Part shown: positions 42,160 to 64,000 of the stretch, in pieces
How positions within the stretch are numbered: the stretch's first letter is position 1
Layout: each line of letters starts with the position of its first letter
From: Candidatus Thalassarchaeum sp.
Lineage (GTDB): Archaea; Thermoplasmatota; Poseidoniia; Poseidoniales; Thalassarchaeaceae
DNA length: 64,000 nt
Assembly: GCA_016777225.1 (NCBI GenBank)
Contig: JADHRW010000005.1
Location: 50,982 to 114,981, forward strand
Direction: 5' to 3'
Translations under genes and position numbers: made by a program
Notes under the pieces: model-generated
The model's input: only the letters and a program-made list of their open reading frames with translations
The model's database searches: none
What the model was told of the DNA's origin: nothing

Positions 42160-42276
42160 AGAACTGCGTCATTAATATCACTGATGAGTGTTTGCCATAA
42201 TGGTTTGTAATTTCTTAAACTATAATCTAATAGAATAATAGATTACTTGAATAACTCTAACATCACGACAAACATC

Positions 42277-43152
42277 ATGGACAGTGAAAGAAGGAAGCGT
42301 TTAATTCAGCTTCAACGGATGGAAATCACTGAGGCAGAAGTGTATACAAAACTAGCAAAAAGACAAAATAATCCGAAAAATAAAGATATCTTAGAGAAAA
42401 TTGCTATCCAAGAAAATGCGCATTATAATATTCTGAGAAAAAGTACTGGCATTGATGTTAATCCATCAAAAATAAGAGTATCATTACATGTAATGGCTTC
42501 AGTTTTATTTGGGCTTACTTTTTCTCTCAAACTTATGGAGAAAATTGAAAAGAGTGCGGCAAAAGAATATCGAGATTTAGGATTAGATGATATTGCTAAA
42601 GAGGAGGATGAACATGAACAAAAACTTCTTTCTCTATTAGAAGAAGATGCATTAAATTATCTCAGCAGTGTCATACTAGGGCTATCTGATGCATTAGTAG
42701 AATTAACAGGGGCTCTTGCAGGACTTACTTTAGCATTTCAAGAATTGAAAGTTGTTGCATTGGCAGGGTTAGTAACTGGAATTGCTGCATCTTTTAGCAT
42801 GGCTGCGTCTGAATTTTTAGCAACTAAAGAAGAAAATTCAGGACGTTCCCCGATTAAAGCAGCGATTTTCACAGGAGTGGCATACCTTTTCACAGTAATT
42901 CTTCTTGTGACTCCATATCTATTTTTAGATGATAATAGTGGTATGATACTAGGCCTTGAACCTCATTTTCAAGCACTTTGTGCTACATTGATAATTGGAT
43001 TATTAATTATCGCTAAATTTAATTTCTATGTATCAATAGCTCAGGACCATTCTTTCAAGCAAAGGTTTACAGAAATGACAGCAATTCTAATCGTAGTAAC
43101 GAGTATTTCCTTTGTCATAGGAGTCATTCTAAGAGATTGGTTCGCAATATGA
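42277..43152 (+). CDS. Ferritin-like/VIT1 (CCC1) iron transporter
   Basis: About 290 residues. The first ~130 form a rubrerythrin/ferritin-like helical domain with repeated Glu and His (MEITEAEVYTKLA, IQENAHYNIL, AKEEDEHEQKLL), a di-iron pattern. The C-terminal ~150 are five TM helices of the VIT1/CCC1 family (LSDALVELTGALAGLTLA, MAASEFLA). Fusions of this kind export or store Fe(II)/Mn(II) in bacteria (MbfA-like). The ORF track begins with TTG at 42247; ATG at 42277 is preferred and lies ~50 bp after a TATA-like ACTATAAT. Confidence 0.88.
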   Translation: MDSERRKRLIQLQRMEITEAEVYTKLAKRQNNPKNKDILEKIAIQENAHYNILRKSTGIDVNPSKIRVSLHVMASVLFGLTFSLKLMEKIEKSAAKEYRDLGLDDIAKEEDEHEQKLLSLLEEDALNYLSSVILGLSDALVELTGALAGLTLAFQELKVVALAGLVTGIAASFSMAASEFLATKEENSGRSPIKAAIFTGVAYLFTVILLVTPYLFLDDNSGMILGLEPHFQALCATLIIGLLIIAKFNFYVSIAQDHSFKQRFTEMTAILIVVTSISFVIGVILRDWFAI

Positions 43153-44772: not shown

Positions 44773-45834
44773 ATGATGCTAAGTCATAGATTAGAGGAAC
44801 TGGCATCATTCGTTAGGGATTTAGGCAGTGAATGTACATGCCTAATCATTCATGAAGATATTTTAATTGCAGGTTCAAAAAATGGAAAAATAGTGTCTTG
44901 GAACATTAAAGATGGGCATGAAATATGGAGTTTAGAAGTAGATGGGCCTATATCTGATATCGAAGTAAGTGATTTAATTTATTTGACAGCATCCGCTGAA
45001 CTACATGCTATTGAAATTGAAAATGGTAGTTTGAAATGGACCCAGGATATCGGCGGATCTAGTGACTTAATCAAAGTTGATAAAGAATCGATATGGGTTA
45101 CATCATCATTGTATGAAATTGAAGTACAAGATTATACTGAAACTACATTATTAAAATTTGATAAAAATTCTAAATTAATTAAATCAATTGTTTTTGAAGA
45201 AAGACCATGGTTTATGGCAATAGAAGAAAATGATTTGATTCTGGGTATTGGAAGACCAAGGTGTGGTTACTTAATTGTAAATAGTAATTATGAAATAATT
45301 CACGAAAAAATTAGTGGTGATAGCCCGATAACATTAGGAATCAAAACAAAATTTGGTTTTTTACTAGGTCATAGTAATGGCACAATGACTGAAATAAAAA
45401 ATAGAAACCAACAAAAAATTGAATTAGAACAATCTCCTATAACTTCAATGATTGGAACAGAGGATTTTTGGTGTTTAGGAGATGAAAAGGGCACAATTCT
45501 TTCTTCGAATAACTGGAAAAAAAATATTTCCAATAGGATTGACTGTCTAATAGAAGTCAATAATTTAATTTGGGCAGCTGCTGTTAATAATGAAAATCGA
45601 ATTTATTTATTGGATAAAAATAATGGCGATACTAAACATATAGTAACTCATGACTCAAGAATTATATTAATGAAACATATAAATGGTAAAATTGCTATAT
45701 CTGATAAAAATGGGAAAATAATACTTTTAGAAGAAGAAATTGTATATAGGAGACTAAGTGAAATCAAAGAAATCTCCCAAAATCAAGAAAAAAGAGATTT
45801 GTTAAAAAAACGATTAAGAGAACTTCGCAAGTAA
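44773..45834 (+). CDS. PQQ/WD-like beta-propeller protein
   Basis: 353 residues with about seven blade-like repeats (SKNGKIVSWNIKDGHEIWSL, HAIEIENGSLKWTQ, and SDKNGKIILLEEE near the end). No signal peptide and no catalytic motif, so probably a cytosolic scaffold. The C-terminus is a charged helix (SQNQEKRDLLKKRLRELRK). It starts 36 bp after the M32 gene on the same strand. Function unknown. Confidence 0.75.
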   Translation: MMLSHRLEELASFVRDLGSECTCLIIHEDILIAGSKNGKIVSWNIKDGHEIWSLEVDGPISDIEVSDLIYLTASAELHAIEIENGSLKWTQDIGGSSDLIKVDKESIWVTSSLYEIEVQDYTETTLLKFDKNSKLIKSIVFEERPWFMAIEENDLILGIGRPRCGYLIVNSNYEIIHEKISGDSPITLGIKTKFGFLLGHSNGTMTEIKNRNQQKIELEQSPITSMIGTEDFWCLGDEKGTILSSNNWKKNISNRIDCLIEVNNLIWAAAVNNENRIYLLDKNNGDTKHIVTHDSRIILMKHINGKIAISDKNGKIILLEEEIVYRRLSEIKEISQNQEKRDLLKKRLRELRK

Positions 45835-45900
45835 ATTCTTACAGTGGAAATTAACCCCTATTGACCCTCATTTCCAGTGTACTGCGACCTTATTGTAGAA

Positions 45901-45911
45901 AGGTTTAAGAG
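45901..45911 (+). promoter_or_regulatory. Putative promoter of the ncRNA region
   Basis: AGGTTTAAGAG preceded by TAGAA resembles an archaeal BRE + TATA box. A start ~25 bp downstream (~45930) would put the RNA's 5' end just before the first hairpins. No other promoter-like site fits this gap better. Confidence 0.35.
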
Positions 45912-45929: not shown

Positions 45930-46594
45930 ACTTTGCTGCTCCAGTGGAGGGGTGTGGGCGTGATTAGTCATGACCCGCGGGCCACAACAACCGAGCTCCA
46001 AAAAAGGAGCAGTAAAACCGGAAATCGAAAGAAATCCGGGGAAAGTCAAAACGTCTGTGGACGTAGAGACAACGGGAGAACTGAGATGGGAAAGAACTGG
46101 ACGAAAGGAAAGGGAAAGAACTCACAGAGGAAGTATGGAAAACAACACCGAACCGGCAACGGGGAAAACATAACCGAAATACAAACTATCCCGAAGAGGT
46201 ACACGAGCGAAGAGAAAGAACCAGAGATGGAACTAACTTGAGGCGCGTATGTGGGGAAATGAAGATGAAAAAAACCGGACGCAAGAAAGGGGAAAAGAAA
46301 CAGAAAGGAAACACATTGAAGACAAGAGCGGGAAACCGTGGAGGATCAGTACTGAGACGTGGAAAAAACTAGTGAGAGCTAGGGAAATAAACGAACACGG
46401 ATTAAAAGAAGAGATTCTTAAAATTCGGAAAAAGACGAAGAGAGAGCATGAAGTCTCTAAGTCATCTACCCCAGGAGAGTAGGGACCTTAGGGAAACTAC
46501 AAACCTGGGACCCTGCGGAGTTAGCAGAGGGTAATGATCCCCCAATGTTCAGAACCCACTGCTAGCTCCCACCTATTCGGTATTTCGGCTCGAC
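45930..46594 (+). ncRNA. Putative large structured RNA (~650 nt), identity unknown
   Basis: The gap between two genes (45835-46597) has no credible protein gene. By hand count 46021-46440 is 45% A, 11% T and 44% G+C, unlike any gene in the window. Several plus-strand hairpins are exact: GCTCC-A6-GGAGC (45995-46010); CCGGA/TCCGG (46018-46039) with an AA/AA internal loop, UC/GA and a GAAA tetraloop; CGTC-TGTG-GACG (46052-46063); CCG-GCAA-CGG (46153-46162); CGG-GAAA-CCG (46329-46338). At the 3' end CCCAGG/CCTGGG (46470/46504) is followed by hairpin CCCTGC...GCAGaGG (46511-46530), whose loop GGAGTTA pairs with TAGCTCC (46563-46569), a pseudoknot. GNRA loops fix the strand as plus. Some motifs resemble RNase P (GGGGAAAGTC; AATGAT...CAGAACCC), but I could not find P4. 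Confidence 0.6.
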
Positions 46595-46599
46595 TTTTT
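46595..46599 (+). terminator. T5 run ending the putative ncRNA
   Basis: GACTTTTTACTT; five Ts on the plus strand inside the last codons of the convergent fumarase gene. Archaeal RNA polymerase stops at such runs; assignment is inference. Confidence 0.3.
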
Positions 46600-48202
46600 A
46601 CTTCTTATTAGGTCCTATCATTTCTTCTGGCTTAACCCATTTATCGAATTGTTGATTATCTAATAATTCTAGTTCTAATGCACTCTCCCTTAGTGTCATA
46701 TTGTTATTATGAGCATTTTTTGCTATTTTTGCTGCATTATCATATCCAATATGAGGATTAAGTGCAGTAACGAGCATTAATGAGTTTTCTAAATGTTGAG
46801 AAATTTTCTCATGATTAGCTCCTAACCCTTCAACACATTTTTCTGAGAACGAAACACAGGTATCGGAAAGTATCCTTATGCTATGTAGGAGATTATGAAT
46901 CATCATCGGCTTATACACATTTAATTCAAAATTTCCTTGACTCCCTCCTATTGAAATTGCAGTATTATTGCCCATTACTTGGCAACAAACCATTGTCATT
47001 GCTTCCGCCTGAGTAGGATTAACTTTGCCAGGCATTATACTGGAGCCTGGTTCATTGGCCGGAAGTGATAATTCTCCAAAACCACACCTAGGTCCTGACC
47101 CCATCCAGCGGATATCGTTGGCTATTTTCATTAAAGAAGCGGCCAAGGTATTCAGCATTCCAGACGAGGCAACTATAGCATCATGAGCGGCTAATTGTGC
47201 AAATTTATTTTCTGCACTCGTAAAATCTAAAGAAGTGTAAGTTGCTATTTTCTTCGCTACCTTTTCAGAAAAATCAGGGTGGGTATTGAGACCAGTTCCC
47301 ACCGCAGTTCCACCTAGAGCAAGTTCAAGAAGGTCTAATTGAGTATTTTCTATACGAGCAATGTCTGAATCTAACATTGAGACATAAGCGCTAAACTCCT
47401 GTCCTAAGGTCAATGGTACAGCATCCATTAGATGAGTTCGACCAATTTTGACTACGCTTGAAAATTCTCTTGATTTCTTATCTAAAGAGTTTCTTAACTT
47501 CATTATTGCCGGTATTAATCTATGTTGAATTTCTTCTGCTGCAGCGATATGCATAGCAGTAGGGAATGTATCATTACTTGATTGGGCTCTGTTGACATGA
47601 TCATTTGGGTGGACGGGTGTTTTACTACCTAAACGGCCATTAGTAAGTTCTATCGCACGATTAGCAATTACTTCGTTTGCATTCATATTAGTTTGTGTTC
47701 CTGAACCAGTCTGCCATACACGTAATGGGAAATGATCATTCAGACTGCCCGAAATTACTTCATCGCAAGCAGAAGATATTAGAGCGCCTATTTTAGGATC
47801 TAATTCATTTAATTCTACATTTGTTTCAGCTGCAGATTTCTTGAGAATACCAAATGCACGTATCATTGCATGTGGCATTATATCAATACCGATATTGAAA
47901 TTAATTAGAGAACGAGCTGTCTGGGCTCCATAATAACGATCGGAGGGGACTTTAATTTCGCCCATGGTATCTTTTTCAATTCTCATAAAATCTTCATCAC
48001 CACGCGCTTTTTTTGACTCGCCCTCTGGCTCATATGGTTGAGAATTTCTCTCGGAAAAAAGAGCGTTTTCGATCATTTTAGATATTGTTGCTGAACGACC
48101 ATCATTTTGTCCTTTGCCTACTTTTTTATCTAATTTTTTAGCTAATTCTTCAGGGATACTTATGCTTAATATTCGGCGGTCGCCCGTTCTATGTTTAGCC
48201 AT
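46598..48202 (-). CDS. fumC: Class II fumarase with N-terminal ribbon-helix-helix domain
   Basis: Fumarate + water to malate in the TCA cycle. Residues ~73-534 are a normal FumC: GTHTPV-type segments ([35 protein letters not shown]) and the signature [16 protein letters not shown]. In front lies an in-frame ~50-residue ribbon-helix-helix: [20 protein letters not shown], then [14 protein letters not shown], followed by a linker. The ATG at 47986 (residue 73) has GGTGAT upstream, so a second, domain-free fumarase might also be made. A TATA-like TTTATTAATAAG ~26 bp before 48202 predicts a leaderless mRNA that includes the RHH domain. Confidence 0.93.
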
Positions 48203-62500: not shown

Positions 62501-64000
62501 AAATCATAATTTGCTTCAGAAGAAATATTGTAAGAGAAACTTACTGCTCCGTCAGCTAAAATTCCTACATACTCTAAACTGGTACTTTCACTATTAGAAA
62601 TAGTACCCGATTCTGCAGAATAAGTTCCTGAAATAGGAGTATAAGAGGGATTGGTCTGAGATACATAAGAATAGTCGGCTGAGACTGAAGATCCACCATC
62701 GCCAAATGAGTCGTTGAGATAAATGGTATAATTTCCAATATCTGTATAACTTACTAGAATTCCATCATTGCCTGATGAAATCCCTTGAAAAGAAAGGTCT
62801 GTTGAATTGAATGACTCTACCGTCCCATTAGGAAGAATAACATCCATACTAAATTCTGAAGGCCAGTTGTCAATTCCAACTGTGAGATCAACTGAGGAAG
62901 TATTTGGAGGATGGTAATAAGTACAGTTCAAGGAATGAAATGAAGGGTTAGCAACAGAACCGCCAATACCACATAGATTCGTATTTGAGTAGACAATTCC
63001 ATTATTTGCTGACTCTAAAGACCAAAAATTGTTTGATGGACTTGAAACTGCCCAGCCATTTGTCAAATAGCCACTTTCAAAATCGCCTTCGAAATTAGCC
63101 ATATTATTCGATGGATAGAGGTACATCTCGCCTCCAGCATCTTTCGTGCTCCAAGATGAGTCATCACAAGTTCTATGCTGAGTTCCAACTGTGGTTCCGG
63201 GGCATTGTACTAAATCCATCATATGAGATCTTACGATCGTGTCTGAACCACCAGCAATATTTGTAGAAGGCCCATATGCAGAAGTTCCTGCTATTGCTAT
63301 TGGTATGATTCCTGCCTTAGTACAAGCATCGTGTGCTTCAATTATACTTTGATTATCATCAGACTCTTGTGCCGGATCTCCACCAAATGGCCCCTCGTCA
63401 GAGATAGGAATAATCAACCTAGTAGCATTCGGATTCCATTGATGATCATTCGGTGTTGCTGGATTTCCAGGTACGCTACCTGAACTATCTCTCCAAGATA
63501 GACAAGCCCATGTTGATCCTGGTCCCCACATTTCACTATTATACCCCCAATCTGATGGTATGTTGTAACTAGAACCGTTGTATATTACATCAGAAAGAGC
63601 TCTTATTCCGCCTGAGGTATCTGTCATGTTTTGGCCAAGATGATTGTCTCTTGGTCCGTCACCAAATCCTCCAATTTCATATGCATCTTCACAATTCTTC
63701 TGGCTATTTGCATGTTGCATTTGGCCACTAATTGCATAAAGTGTTTCTAAAACCGTAATACTAGCGGATTCAAGCATCGGCTTGACACCTTGGAAATATT
63801 CTCCACTACTTAAATTTCCACCATAAAATACTGCACACATATCCAACCATTCGGTAGTCATAGATCCCGAAGAATCTACTAATCCAACATACTCGATTAA
63901 ACTTCCACGTGTATCTTCCCAAACGACAATTACCGTATTATTCGTACCTATTGATATCGCTGGGCTACCTTTGTAGCCAATTGCTGGAGTAATGATTGTA
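59551..64000 (-). CDS. Giant VWA / thrombospondin-type-3-repeat surface protein, N-terminus beyond window
   Basis: The ORF track starts at 63861, but the frame stays open to the right edge, and the residues just before read GLVDSSGSM, so 63861 is the Met of a VWA MIDAS motif D-x-S-G-S. Upstream lies a TNNTVIVVWEDTRGS-like propeller segment. After the VWA region come beta-sandwich parts, then ~10 calcium-binding TSP3-like units (DDDNDGYLDSNDLCPTG, DIDNDGDGVVNGYDLCP), one TM helix (TTGIFSMGMILLAGLILV) and a ~75-residue cytosolic tail. 1,483 codons in the window. Surface adhesion or protease-docking role is likely. Confidence 0.85.
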   Translation of the reverse strand, partial: TIITPAIGYKGSPAISIGTNNTVIVVWEDTRGSLIEYVGLVDSSGSMTTEWLDMCAVFYGGNLSSGEYFQGVKPMLESASITVLETLYAISGQMQHANSQKNCEDAYEIGGFGDGPRDNHLGQNMTDTSGGIRALSDVIYNGSSYNIPSDWGYNSEMWGPGSTWACLSWRDSSGSVPGNPATPNDHQWNPNATRLIIPISDEGPFGGDPAQESDDNQSIIEAHDACTKAGIIPIAIAGTSAYGPSTNIAGGSDTIVRSHMMDLVQCPGTTVGTQHRTCDDSSWSTKDAGGEMYLYPSNNMANFEGDFESGYLTNGWAVSSPSNNFWSLESANNGIVYSNTNLCGIGGSVANPSFHSLNCTYYHPPNTSSVDLTVGIDNWPSEFSMDVILPNGTVESFNSTDLSFQGISSGNDGILVSYTDIGNYTIYLNDSFGDGGSSVSADYSYVSQTNPSYTPISGTYSAESGTISNSESTSLEYVGILADGAVSFSYNISSEANYDFLQFYIDGVLIAQWSGSQNGNFTTPITLGQHTLMWKYVKDGSVSVGLDAAWIDDVVVPVANYTEELNALVNEIVSLTTGSGSTETFLTVLNPYSILNSPRSDWSRGMPAITINDETGEYIEDVGPNLDYIWQDGIGWSTIGHFVLVNDTRLTSGHGWSVNPEVNVDDKGNVHVVWVDGRDSMPGKDVASQLHYMQLDLSRAGMLDGEADGLNLNQVAVVTNSAVPGSDMTYGANPRVDFDNDGSIHITWFESMDDTITDEGIVELRWTRINSPQLDNQGALLTGQTLTDAYGVINTRIIASSSDNLMGIFGNNVESASQPIVNFNWPNRDIIWTTDDCSNSDINEDKWDVCMWSENVWDIEISSDPVEMSFTPSQSSNTNYQINAIQLPGESDIVTIDIQGTPNHWFIDAGFAGTYQHTTTLIENQMNNFDLFIRAPSLNQVNENQEFWLTLSVTSSTKDEASITKLIKINLVNNGDWNDDDLDGVYDEQDLCQFGESNWISSPLNDHDSDGCKDSSEDLDDDNDGYLDSNDLCPTGQIGEILDDDYDGCDDRNEDIDNDGDGVVNGYDLCPDGAQYWSSFAIDNDGDGCRDADEDDNDDNDPYLDINDDCSSGYSWWDDLYFDHDTDGCHDVFDDNDDDNDGILDRGDSCPQGLVLWISSPATDQDGDGCHDATEDNDRDNDGISDDLDQCSMGATDWLSTTINDWDSDGCNDLLEDLDDDNDGFLDTEDNCIRSAMYVTSGNSDVDQDNDGCLDDLEDEDIDNDGIDNSLDNCQDNPSSGWVSTITEDADRDGCHDANEDADDDNDGVLDNFDQCPNSLESGLDMDNDGCHDLTEDFDDDGDGILDSRDNCPNGLTNWQSSKSTDIDRDGCMDSIEDDNIEMSIVQLFSTNSAITTGIFSMGMILLAGLILVQRNRPKIRQFSDDTEDVNATFEKQFQDWNNENTDQKLDDLTKVGYSPEVALAIIENEKKIIEDSIEGQI
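59869..61070 (-). repeat. TSP3-like Asp-rich repeat tract within surface protein
   Basis: About ten ~35-45-residue units alternating D-x-D-x-D-G-C calcium loops with NxDxCP segments, e.g. DQDGDGCHDATEDNDRDNDG. Regular cysteines suggest disulfides. Nucleotide divergence between units is large, so it is an old repeat. Confidence 0.85.

Follow-up and report, generated by a model that had tools for sequence, protein, structure and literature searches.

Positions 45930-46598 on the plus strand of the window, as the whole 64-kb stretch of DNA that was analysed is called here, very likely represent a real gene for a large structured non-coding RNA. The fold of this RNA is backed by paired mutations across many genomes, and the RNA family is kept across one order of Marine Group II-like ocean archaea, with the promoter region and two terminal domains conserved and an interior that is variable and rich in hairpins. 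The transcript is predicted to start at 45930, as judged from the promoter, and to end at 46598, a 3' end inferred from a T-run (46594-46598, plus strand) that abuts the end of the convergent fumarase gene and is presumed, from its sequence, to act as the transcript end. Comparison of homologues sets the conserved core at 45933-46573 of the plus strand (641 nt). The length of the RNA is about 640 nt here and 426-1224 nt among homologues, the upper value being that of locus L025, which spans a run of N. A preliminary description made from sequence alone had proposed a stable plus-strand RNA of about 650 nt, possibly of a new class, and this proposal is supported by conservation, covariation, the promoter and the lack of an Rfam match; it can be refined in that the conserved core has the limits given above and the A-richness of the locus is specific to the genus.

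Covariation, Composition and Coding Potential

Alignment A1 comprises 22 homologues and has a consensus of 99 pairs in 25 helices. In this alignment 94.3% of the cells are paired (83.1 +/- 0.4 in shuffled and 37-47 in slid controls), 62 of the 99 pairs are double-changed (36 +/- 3 shuffled, 16-25 slid) and double-changed cells number 275 (84 +/- 8 shuffled, 41-49 slid); none of 500 shuffles matched any of these three values. The consensus was derived from the same 22 sequences and is therefore favoured over the slid controls, which is why an independent test on the 3' element, GCGGAG-stem-CUCCCA, matters. With a structure drawn by hand and 13 divergent sequences, 99% of the cells of this element are paired and 6 pairs are double-changed, the covariation score being 0.349 compared with 0.094 in shuffled and at most 0.066 in slid controls. 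A covariance analysis of relatives, named in the preliminary description as a check, has thus been carried out, and the helices are conserved and covary, the reverse of the outcome that would have refuted it.

The 420 bases between 46021 and 46440 comprise 189 A, 46 T, 123 G and 62 C, and their A-T skew is 0.61; no other 420-base stretch of the window outside this locus exceeds 0.33, little more than half as much, and the mean is 0.09. A-richness is a trait of the low-GC genus to which this genome belongs, the A fraction being 0.19-0.35 in divergent homologues; low T is more widely kept, at 0.08-0.22 among the same. The predicted fold of the locus beats dinucleotide shuffles (z = -5.0, with 0 of 20 shuffles as good), and the folds of homologues also lie below theirs (z from -1.1 to -12.4). 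There is no credible open reading frame at the locus, and a protein-coding reading is ruled out, since single-base insertions and deletions between close relatives break every frame and leave none conserved. The earlier counts of A (189) and T (46) in 420 bases were exact, and the earlier statement that no credible gene lies here also held, no reading frame being conserved among relatives as would have been needed to refute the RNA.

Domain Architecture and Lineage-Specific Remodelling

All features of the RNA lie on the plus strand. The 5' third is its best-conserved part. The conserved 5' domain spans 45933-46070; 23 of the pairs in its helices 1, 2 and 4-8 are double-changed, and 89-100% of the cells of these helices are paired. 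It contains a conserved hairpin, UUGCYGCUYC..GRAGUGGUG (45935-45953), a second hairpin (45954-45978) and further parts, GCGGGCCACA and then hairpins, at 45995-46010, 46018-46039 (GNRA) and 46045-46070; the second of these carries a GAAA loop and an AA/AA internal loop. A long-range GGG/CCC helix (45979-45981/46511-46513) is predicted to join the 5' and 3' domains, and remains unproven because it is invariant in A1 and so without covariation support. Another pairing in the model structure, between CCACA and the UGUGG loop (46056-46060), is unsupported, as the loop varies in some sequences and CCACA does not.

The first interior domain (46073-46193) is closed by 46073-46077/46189-46193, helix 9, in which 4 of 5 pairs are double-changed and 100% of cells are paired. 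It holds the covarying hairpin 11 (46153-46162, GCAA), flanked by direct repeats GGAAAACAnnACCGAA, as well as the first copy of a hairpin module, CUGGACGAAAGGAAAG (46097-46112), with a purine 3x3 internal loop and a GNRA (GAAA) loop. The second interior domain (46198-46353), closed by 46198-46202/46349-46353, has helices 12, 14 and 16 paired in 93-100% of cells with 6 double-changed pairs, and contains the helix 46317-46319/46346-46348 and a hairpin at 46328-46339; the second module copy, CCGGACGCAAGAAAGG (GCAA), lies at 46275-46290. There follow hairpins at 46358-46393 (with 46369-46382) and 46407-46418, in whose helices 17-20 all 12 of 12 pairs are double-changed, and a hairpin at 46470-46509 with an inner stem at 46479-46500, in which 8 of 10 pairs of helices 21 and 22 are. 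The 3' terminal domain, GCGGAG-variable stem-CUCCCACC (46514-46573), is found in every complete homologue read. The GNRA-capped hairpins claimed in the preliminary description, one with an AA/AA internal loop, held, being the hairpins 46018-46039 and 46153-46162 and the two module copies. It was also observed that the near-identical direct repeats around hairpin 11, within 46136-46180, resemble ACAACAACCGA, which follows the 5' domain; they are possibly a protein or A-minor site.

Both ends of the RNA, the 5' hairpin and the 3' element, have been kept, and the interior has been rebuilt lineage by lineage. In the family of this genome (f1), the 16-nt hairpin module YYGGACGNAAGGAARR, with its GNRA loop and purine-purine internal loop, occurs in 1-6 copies per homologue, with 6 copies in L022. 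In the sister family the cUUCGg hairpin was counted in four RNAs: three have 6-12 copies, with 8-12 in two of them, against 0.3-0.4 expected, and the fourth has 3 copies, against 0.2 expected. The RNA of genus g8 contains a 207-nt tandem repeat of 95% identity, and in genus g3 (L025) the 3' domain is tandemly copied at a spacing of 301 nt. At L025:2095-2737 and at other g3 loci two 3' domains can be seen, which would give an RNA of about 1.2 kb, the locus being partly N.

Promoter Region

An archaeal BRE/TATA element, GAAAGGTTTAAG (45898-45909, plus strand), is made up of a BRE-like GAAAG followed by TTTAAG at 45904-45909. The arrangement (G)AAAG-TTTA is kept in both families, about 28 nt ahead of the first conserved bases of the RNA, UUGC. 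The spacing usual in archaeal promoters fits a start at about 45930-45933. That the promoter region is kept order-wide at similar spacing argues for autonomous transcription from about 45930. A TATA-like site, a start at 45930 and a T-run had all been proposed beforehand; the site is the TTTAAG given above, conserved order-wide, the start is matched and the T-run touches the end of fumC.

Further upstream, an inverted repeat, CAGTGGAAAT-N18-ATTTCCAGTG (45842-45879, plus strand), stands above chance in the window, and in both families almost every homologue has CAGTGGAAA-N17-19-TTTCC at a similar distance ahead of its BRE/TATA. It is inferred that the inverted repeat is likely an activator site, the end of the transcript of the upstream gene being a possible alternative; it was not found upstream of the RNase P or SRP genes of the same genome. 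Copies of TGGAAAT-N-ATTTCCA with different spacers were noted elsewhere, at 63791-63820 of the window and at G000:C3:34164 and G000:C8:193595, and these three are likely due to chance.

Distribution and Genomic Context

A nucleotide search of 60 genomes found homologues across the family of this genome, with E values from 1e-300 to 1e-4, and no clear homologue in the sister family. Two covariance models were used, R1 for the 5' domain and R3 for the 3' domain of divergent members. R1 matches 128 of the 293 genomes of the order, and R1 and R3 together place the RNA in all eleven genera of the first family (g1-g11) and in at least three of the sister family (g15, g17 and g22). By inference the first family, whose genomes are the smaller, fits MGIIb/Thalassarchaeaceae and the sister family MGIIa/Poseidoniaceae, MGIIa genomes being larger by some 400 kb on average (PMC6336850). 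The RNA is single copy in nearly all genomes. Nothing convincing was found outside the order, in the class or phylum, and the one phylum match outside the order (G437, E 0.009), lone and weak, is taken as chance. Phage and plasmid records gave no match to the RNA; a stricter viral pattern scan returned one phage-contig match with a model score of only 13.9 bits, also taken as chance.

In every RNA-bearing genome read, the RNA adjoins an upstream gene for a PQQ_2/BamB-like beta-propeller protein (44773-45834, plus strand, Pfam). In the first family, as well as in sister-family genera g15 and g17, it lies between this gene and the convergent fumC (46598-48202, minus strand, Pfam), and in g8 (L333) and g22 (L327), where fumC has moved or become separated, it remains beside the beta-propeller gene. 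In g16 (L427), g20 (L422) and g21 (L425) only a few bases to a few dozen separate the stop codons of the two genes, and the RNA is missing from the gap; since these empty sites are clean, gain or loss of the RNA there was precise. Other genes follow the beta-propeller gene in g12, g13 and g14, where neither model finds an adjacent RNA and R1 finds none genome-wide. The genome assemblies vary in completeness, and an RNA missing from a single genome may reflect an assembly gap; that whole genera of the sister family lack it is a conclusion drawn from two models and from the empty sites. The fumC tree is weakly resolved and does not separate one loss of the RNA from several. The beta-propeller gene is present in 14 of the 16 sister-family genomes examined, and it thus persists where the RNA is lacking, is independent of it and is ruled out as an obligate partner.

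Two observations concern neighbouring genes. Residues 1 to about 80 of the fumC reading frame form an N-terminal extension that precedes the lyase domain and has the look of a ribbon-helix-helix DNA-binding domain, and fumC reading frames of similar long size occur in many relatives. At 42247-43152 (plus strand) the window encodes what looks like a fusion protein, rubrerythrin-type in its N-terminal part and joined to a membrane part of VIT1 type (Pfam), possibly a ferritin-like iron transporter.

Relation to Described RNAs

At gathering thresholds Rfam 15 finds no family anywhere in the 64-kb window, a scan at lax E values returned only unrelated chance-level matches, and 11 homologue loci have no Rfam match at E <= 1; ARAGORN finds no tRNA or tmRNA in the window. 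No Rfam model of group I/II introns or known ribozymes matches at the locus, nor do Rfam's individual C/D and H/ACA guide families, the only guide families scanned, and the OLE, GOLLD and ROOL models match neither in the window nor at the 11 homologue loci. These scans include the RNaseP_arch, SRP and intron models named in the preliminary description, whose option of an expanded RNase P RNA failed. The genome is archaeal and has an RNase P RNA (RF00373, G000:C10:23404-23697, E 5.9e-70) and an SRP RNA (RF01857, G000:C7:45333-45645, E 2.4e-29), both of normal length, and since these ordinary RNAs occupy other loci and neither model matches here, an expanded form of either is ruled out. The likeness to these two is that they too are stable structured archaeal RNAs.

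The existence of the RNA may nonetheless be partly known. Tan1 (Thalassoarchaea ncRNA 1) is an unknown non-coding RNA of 229 nt that ranked fifth in MGII RNA-Seq (Sci Rep 2016, PMC5069720); it is represented by six sequences, has homologues at 75-79% only in Ca. Thalassoarchaea and has a complex predicted structure (PMC5069720). Tan1 could be a fragment or an under-measured form of the archaeal RNA, an identity that we lean slightly against, the sequences not having been compared. In its favour, Tan1 is an abundant MGII non-coding RNA with a complex structure and nucleotide homologues limited to Ca. Thalassoarchaea (PMC5069720), the archaeal RNA likewise has nucleotide-level matches only in the family that corresponds best to Ca. 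Thalassoarchaea, and mapping to a distant reference would stop short in the best-conserved 5' third. Against it stands the length of 229 nt, compared with at least 565 nt in the complete f1 homologues aligned. Tan1 was reported from six sequences; the present RNA, of about 640 nt (426-1224), has order-wide covariation. The identity concerns prior description and not mechanism, and is compatible with any functional reading. The earlier claim that the RNA is undescribed holds with this caveat: were the two identical, there would still be novelty in the full length and domain structure, in a family spanning the order and in the empty sites, and the RNA would then be among the most abundant transcripts of these archaea.

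Proposed Function and Alternatives

It is proposed that the RNA is an architectural scaffold acting in trans, a role that we consider as likely as not and that is inferred from architecture alone, without data on expression, partners or phenotype; its partner and oligomerisation are likewise inferred. In this view, the GGG/CCC helix would bring the 5' and 3' terminal domains together into a conserved core, which would probably bind either another molecule of the same RNA or a protein partner, and the purine-rich interior, with its GNRA- or UUCG-capped hairpins, would form arms that are rigid and tolerant, that pack by A-minor and loop contacts and that each lineage lengthens or shortens through tandem duplication. 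The result would be a particle present in abundance, either ribonucleoprotein or RNA-only, comparable in kind to those of bacterial OLE, GOLLD and ROOL, and the RNA would be useful yet dispensable, as some genera lack it. An architectural RNA is the best fit for a single-copy chromosomal gene that has a promoter of its own and whose product joins conserved ends to capped arms that are free to vary. A catalytic or decoy role is still possible, and it counts against the scaffold reading that the only protein linked to the RNA, the beta-propeller, also occurs in RNA-less genomes.

The alternatives are ranked as decoy RNA, then catalytic ribonucleoprotein, then cis-element. In the first, which is unlikely, the repeated purine-rich GNRA hairpins would act as a sponge, titrating a regulatory or RNA-binding protein of which they take up many copies, in the manner of CsrB-type RNAs. 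The modules GGACGNAAGGAA, present in 1-6 copies per genome and free to vary in number, speak for it; against it, the module is largely specific to f1, with UUCG hairpins in the sister-family RNAs instead, and the terminal domains, not the repeats, are most conserved. Also unlikely is a ribozyme or the RNA part of an unknown enzyme, in which the terminal domains would be the active core and the interior the periphery, as in RNase P. This would agree with the pattern of conserved core and variable periphery and with invariant stretches that look unpaired, such as GCGGGCCACA; however, none of the Rfam models for ribozymes, RNase P, SRP or introns matches, the genome has its RNase P and SRP RNAs elsewhere, and several sister-family genera are without the RNA. 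It is very unlikely that the locus is a cis-element, whether by belonging to the beta-propeller mRNA as a structured 3' UTR or by antisense regulation of fumC. The RNA always follows directly on the beta-propeller gene and is usually in convergent orientation to fumC, but a conserved BRE/TATA separates it from the former, linkage to fumC has been lost in g8 (L333) and g22 (L327) with the RNA kept, its predicted end merely touches fumC, and the beta-propeller gene persists without it. A compositional artefact or decayed gene, suggested by the strong A/T skew and the lack of a reading frame, is all but excluded by compensatory changes far exceeding shuffled and slid controls and by the conserved synteny and promoter.

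The scaffold reading can be extended to a bolder one, which we put forward with reserve and regard as rather more likely to fail than to stand: that the RNA represents a new archaeal class of large ornate RNA, order-specific and 430-1220 nt long, with a two-domain core and arms rebuilt by lineage, assembling into an RNA-only or RNA-protein particle in archaea that are among the most abundant of the ocean, and arisen independently of bacterial OLE, GOLLD and ROOL. The RNA would lend itself directly to cryo-EM, its natural size variants, which range from 426 to more than 1200 nt, numbering in the dozens, and the clean empty sites in sister genera make its gain or loss directly comparable.

Comparison with Known Large RNAs

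GOLLD, ROOL and OLE, described from bacteria and phages, assemble into RNA-only complexes (PMC12286853), and no archaeal counterpart of them was found in the open-access literature searched. OLE, a bacterial RNA of about 600 nt (PMC9723947, PMC12286853), resembles the archaeal RNA in being a large, elaborate and conserved non-coding RNA of a single locus; it acts as a ribonucleoprotein and forms RNA dimers (PMC9723947, PMC12286853). The archaeal RNA differs in that it has no Rfam match, belongs to another domain of life and has no Oap-type partner identified. With GOLLD and ROOL (PMC12286853) it shares a size above 500 nt, an ornate multi-hairpin fold, a conserved and a variable part and an unknown function; in contrast to them it is chromosomal and was not found on phages or plasmids, and there is no match in sequence or model. 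It does fulfil one criterion for RNAs of this kind, namely a length above 400 nt with extensive secondary structure supported by covariation. The large ornate RNAs known to date come from bacteria or their phages, and three have proved to assemble into RNA cages or dimers; with an RNA of such size, proven by covariation, in a dominant and uncultured group of marine archaea, the kind would reach into a second domain of life.
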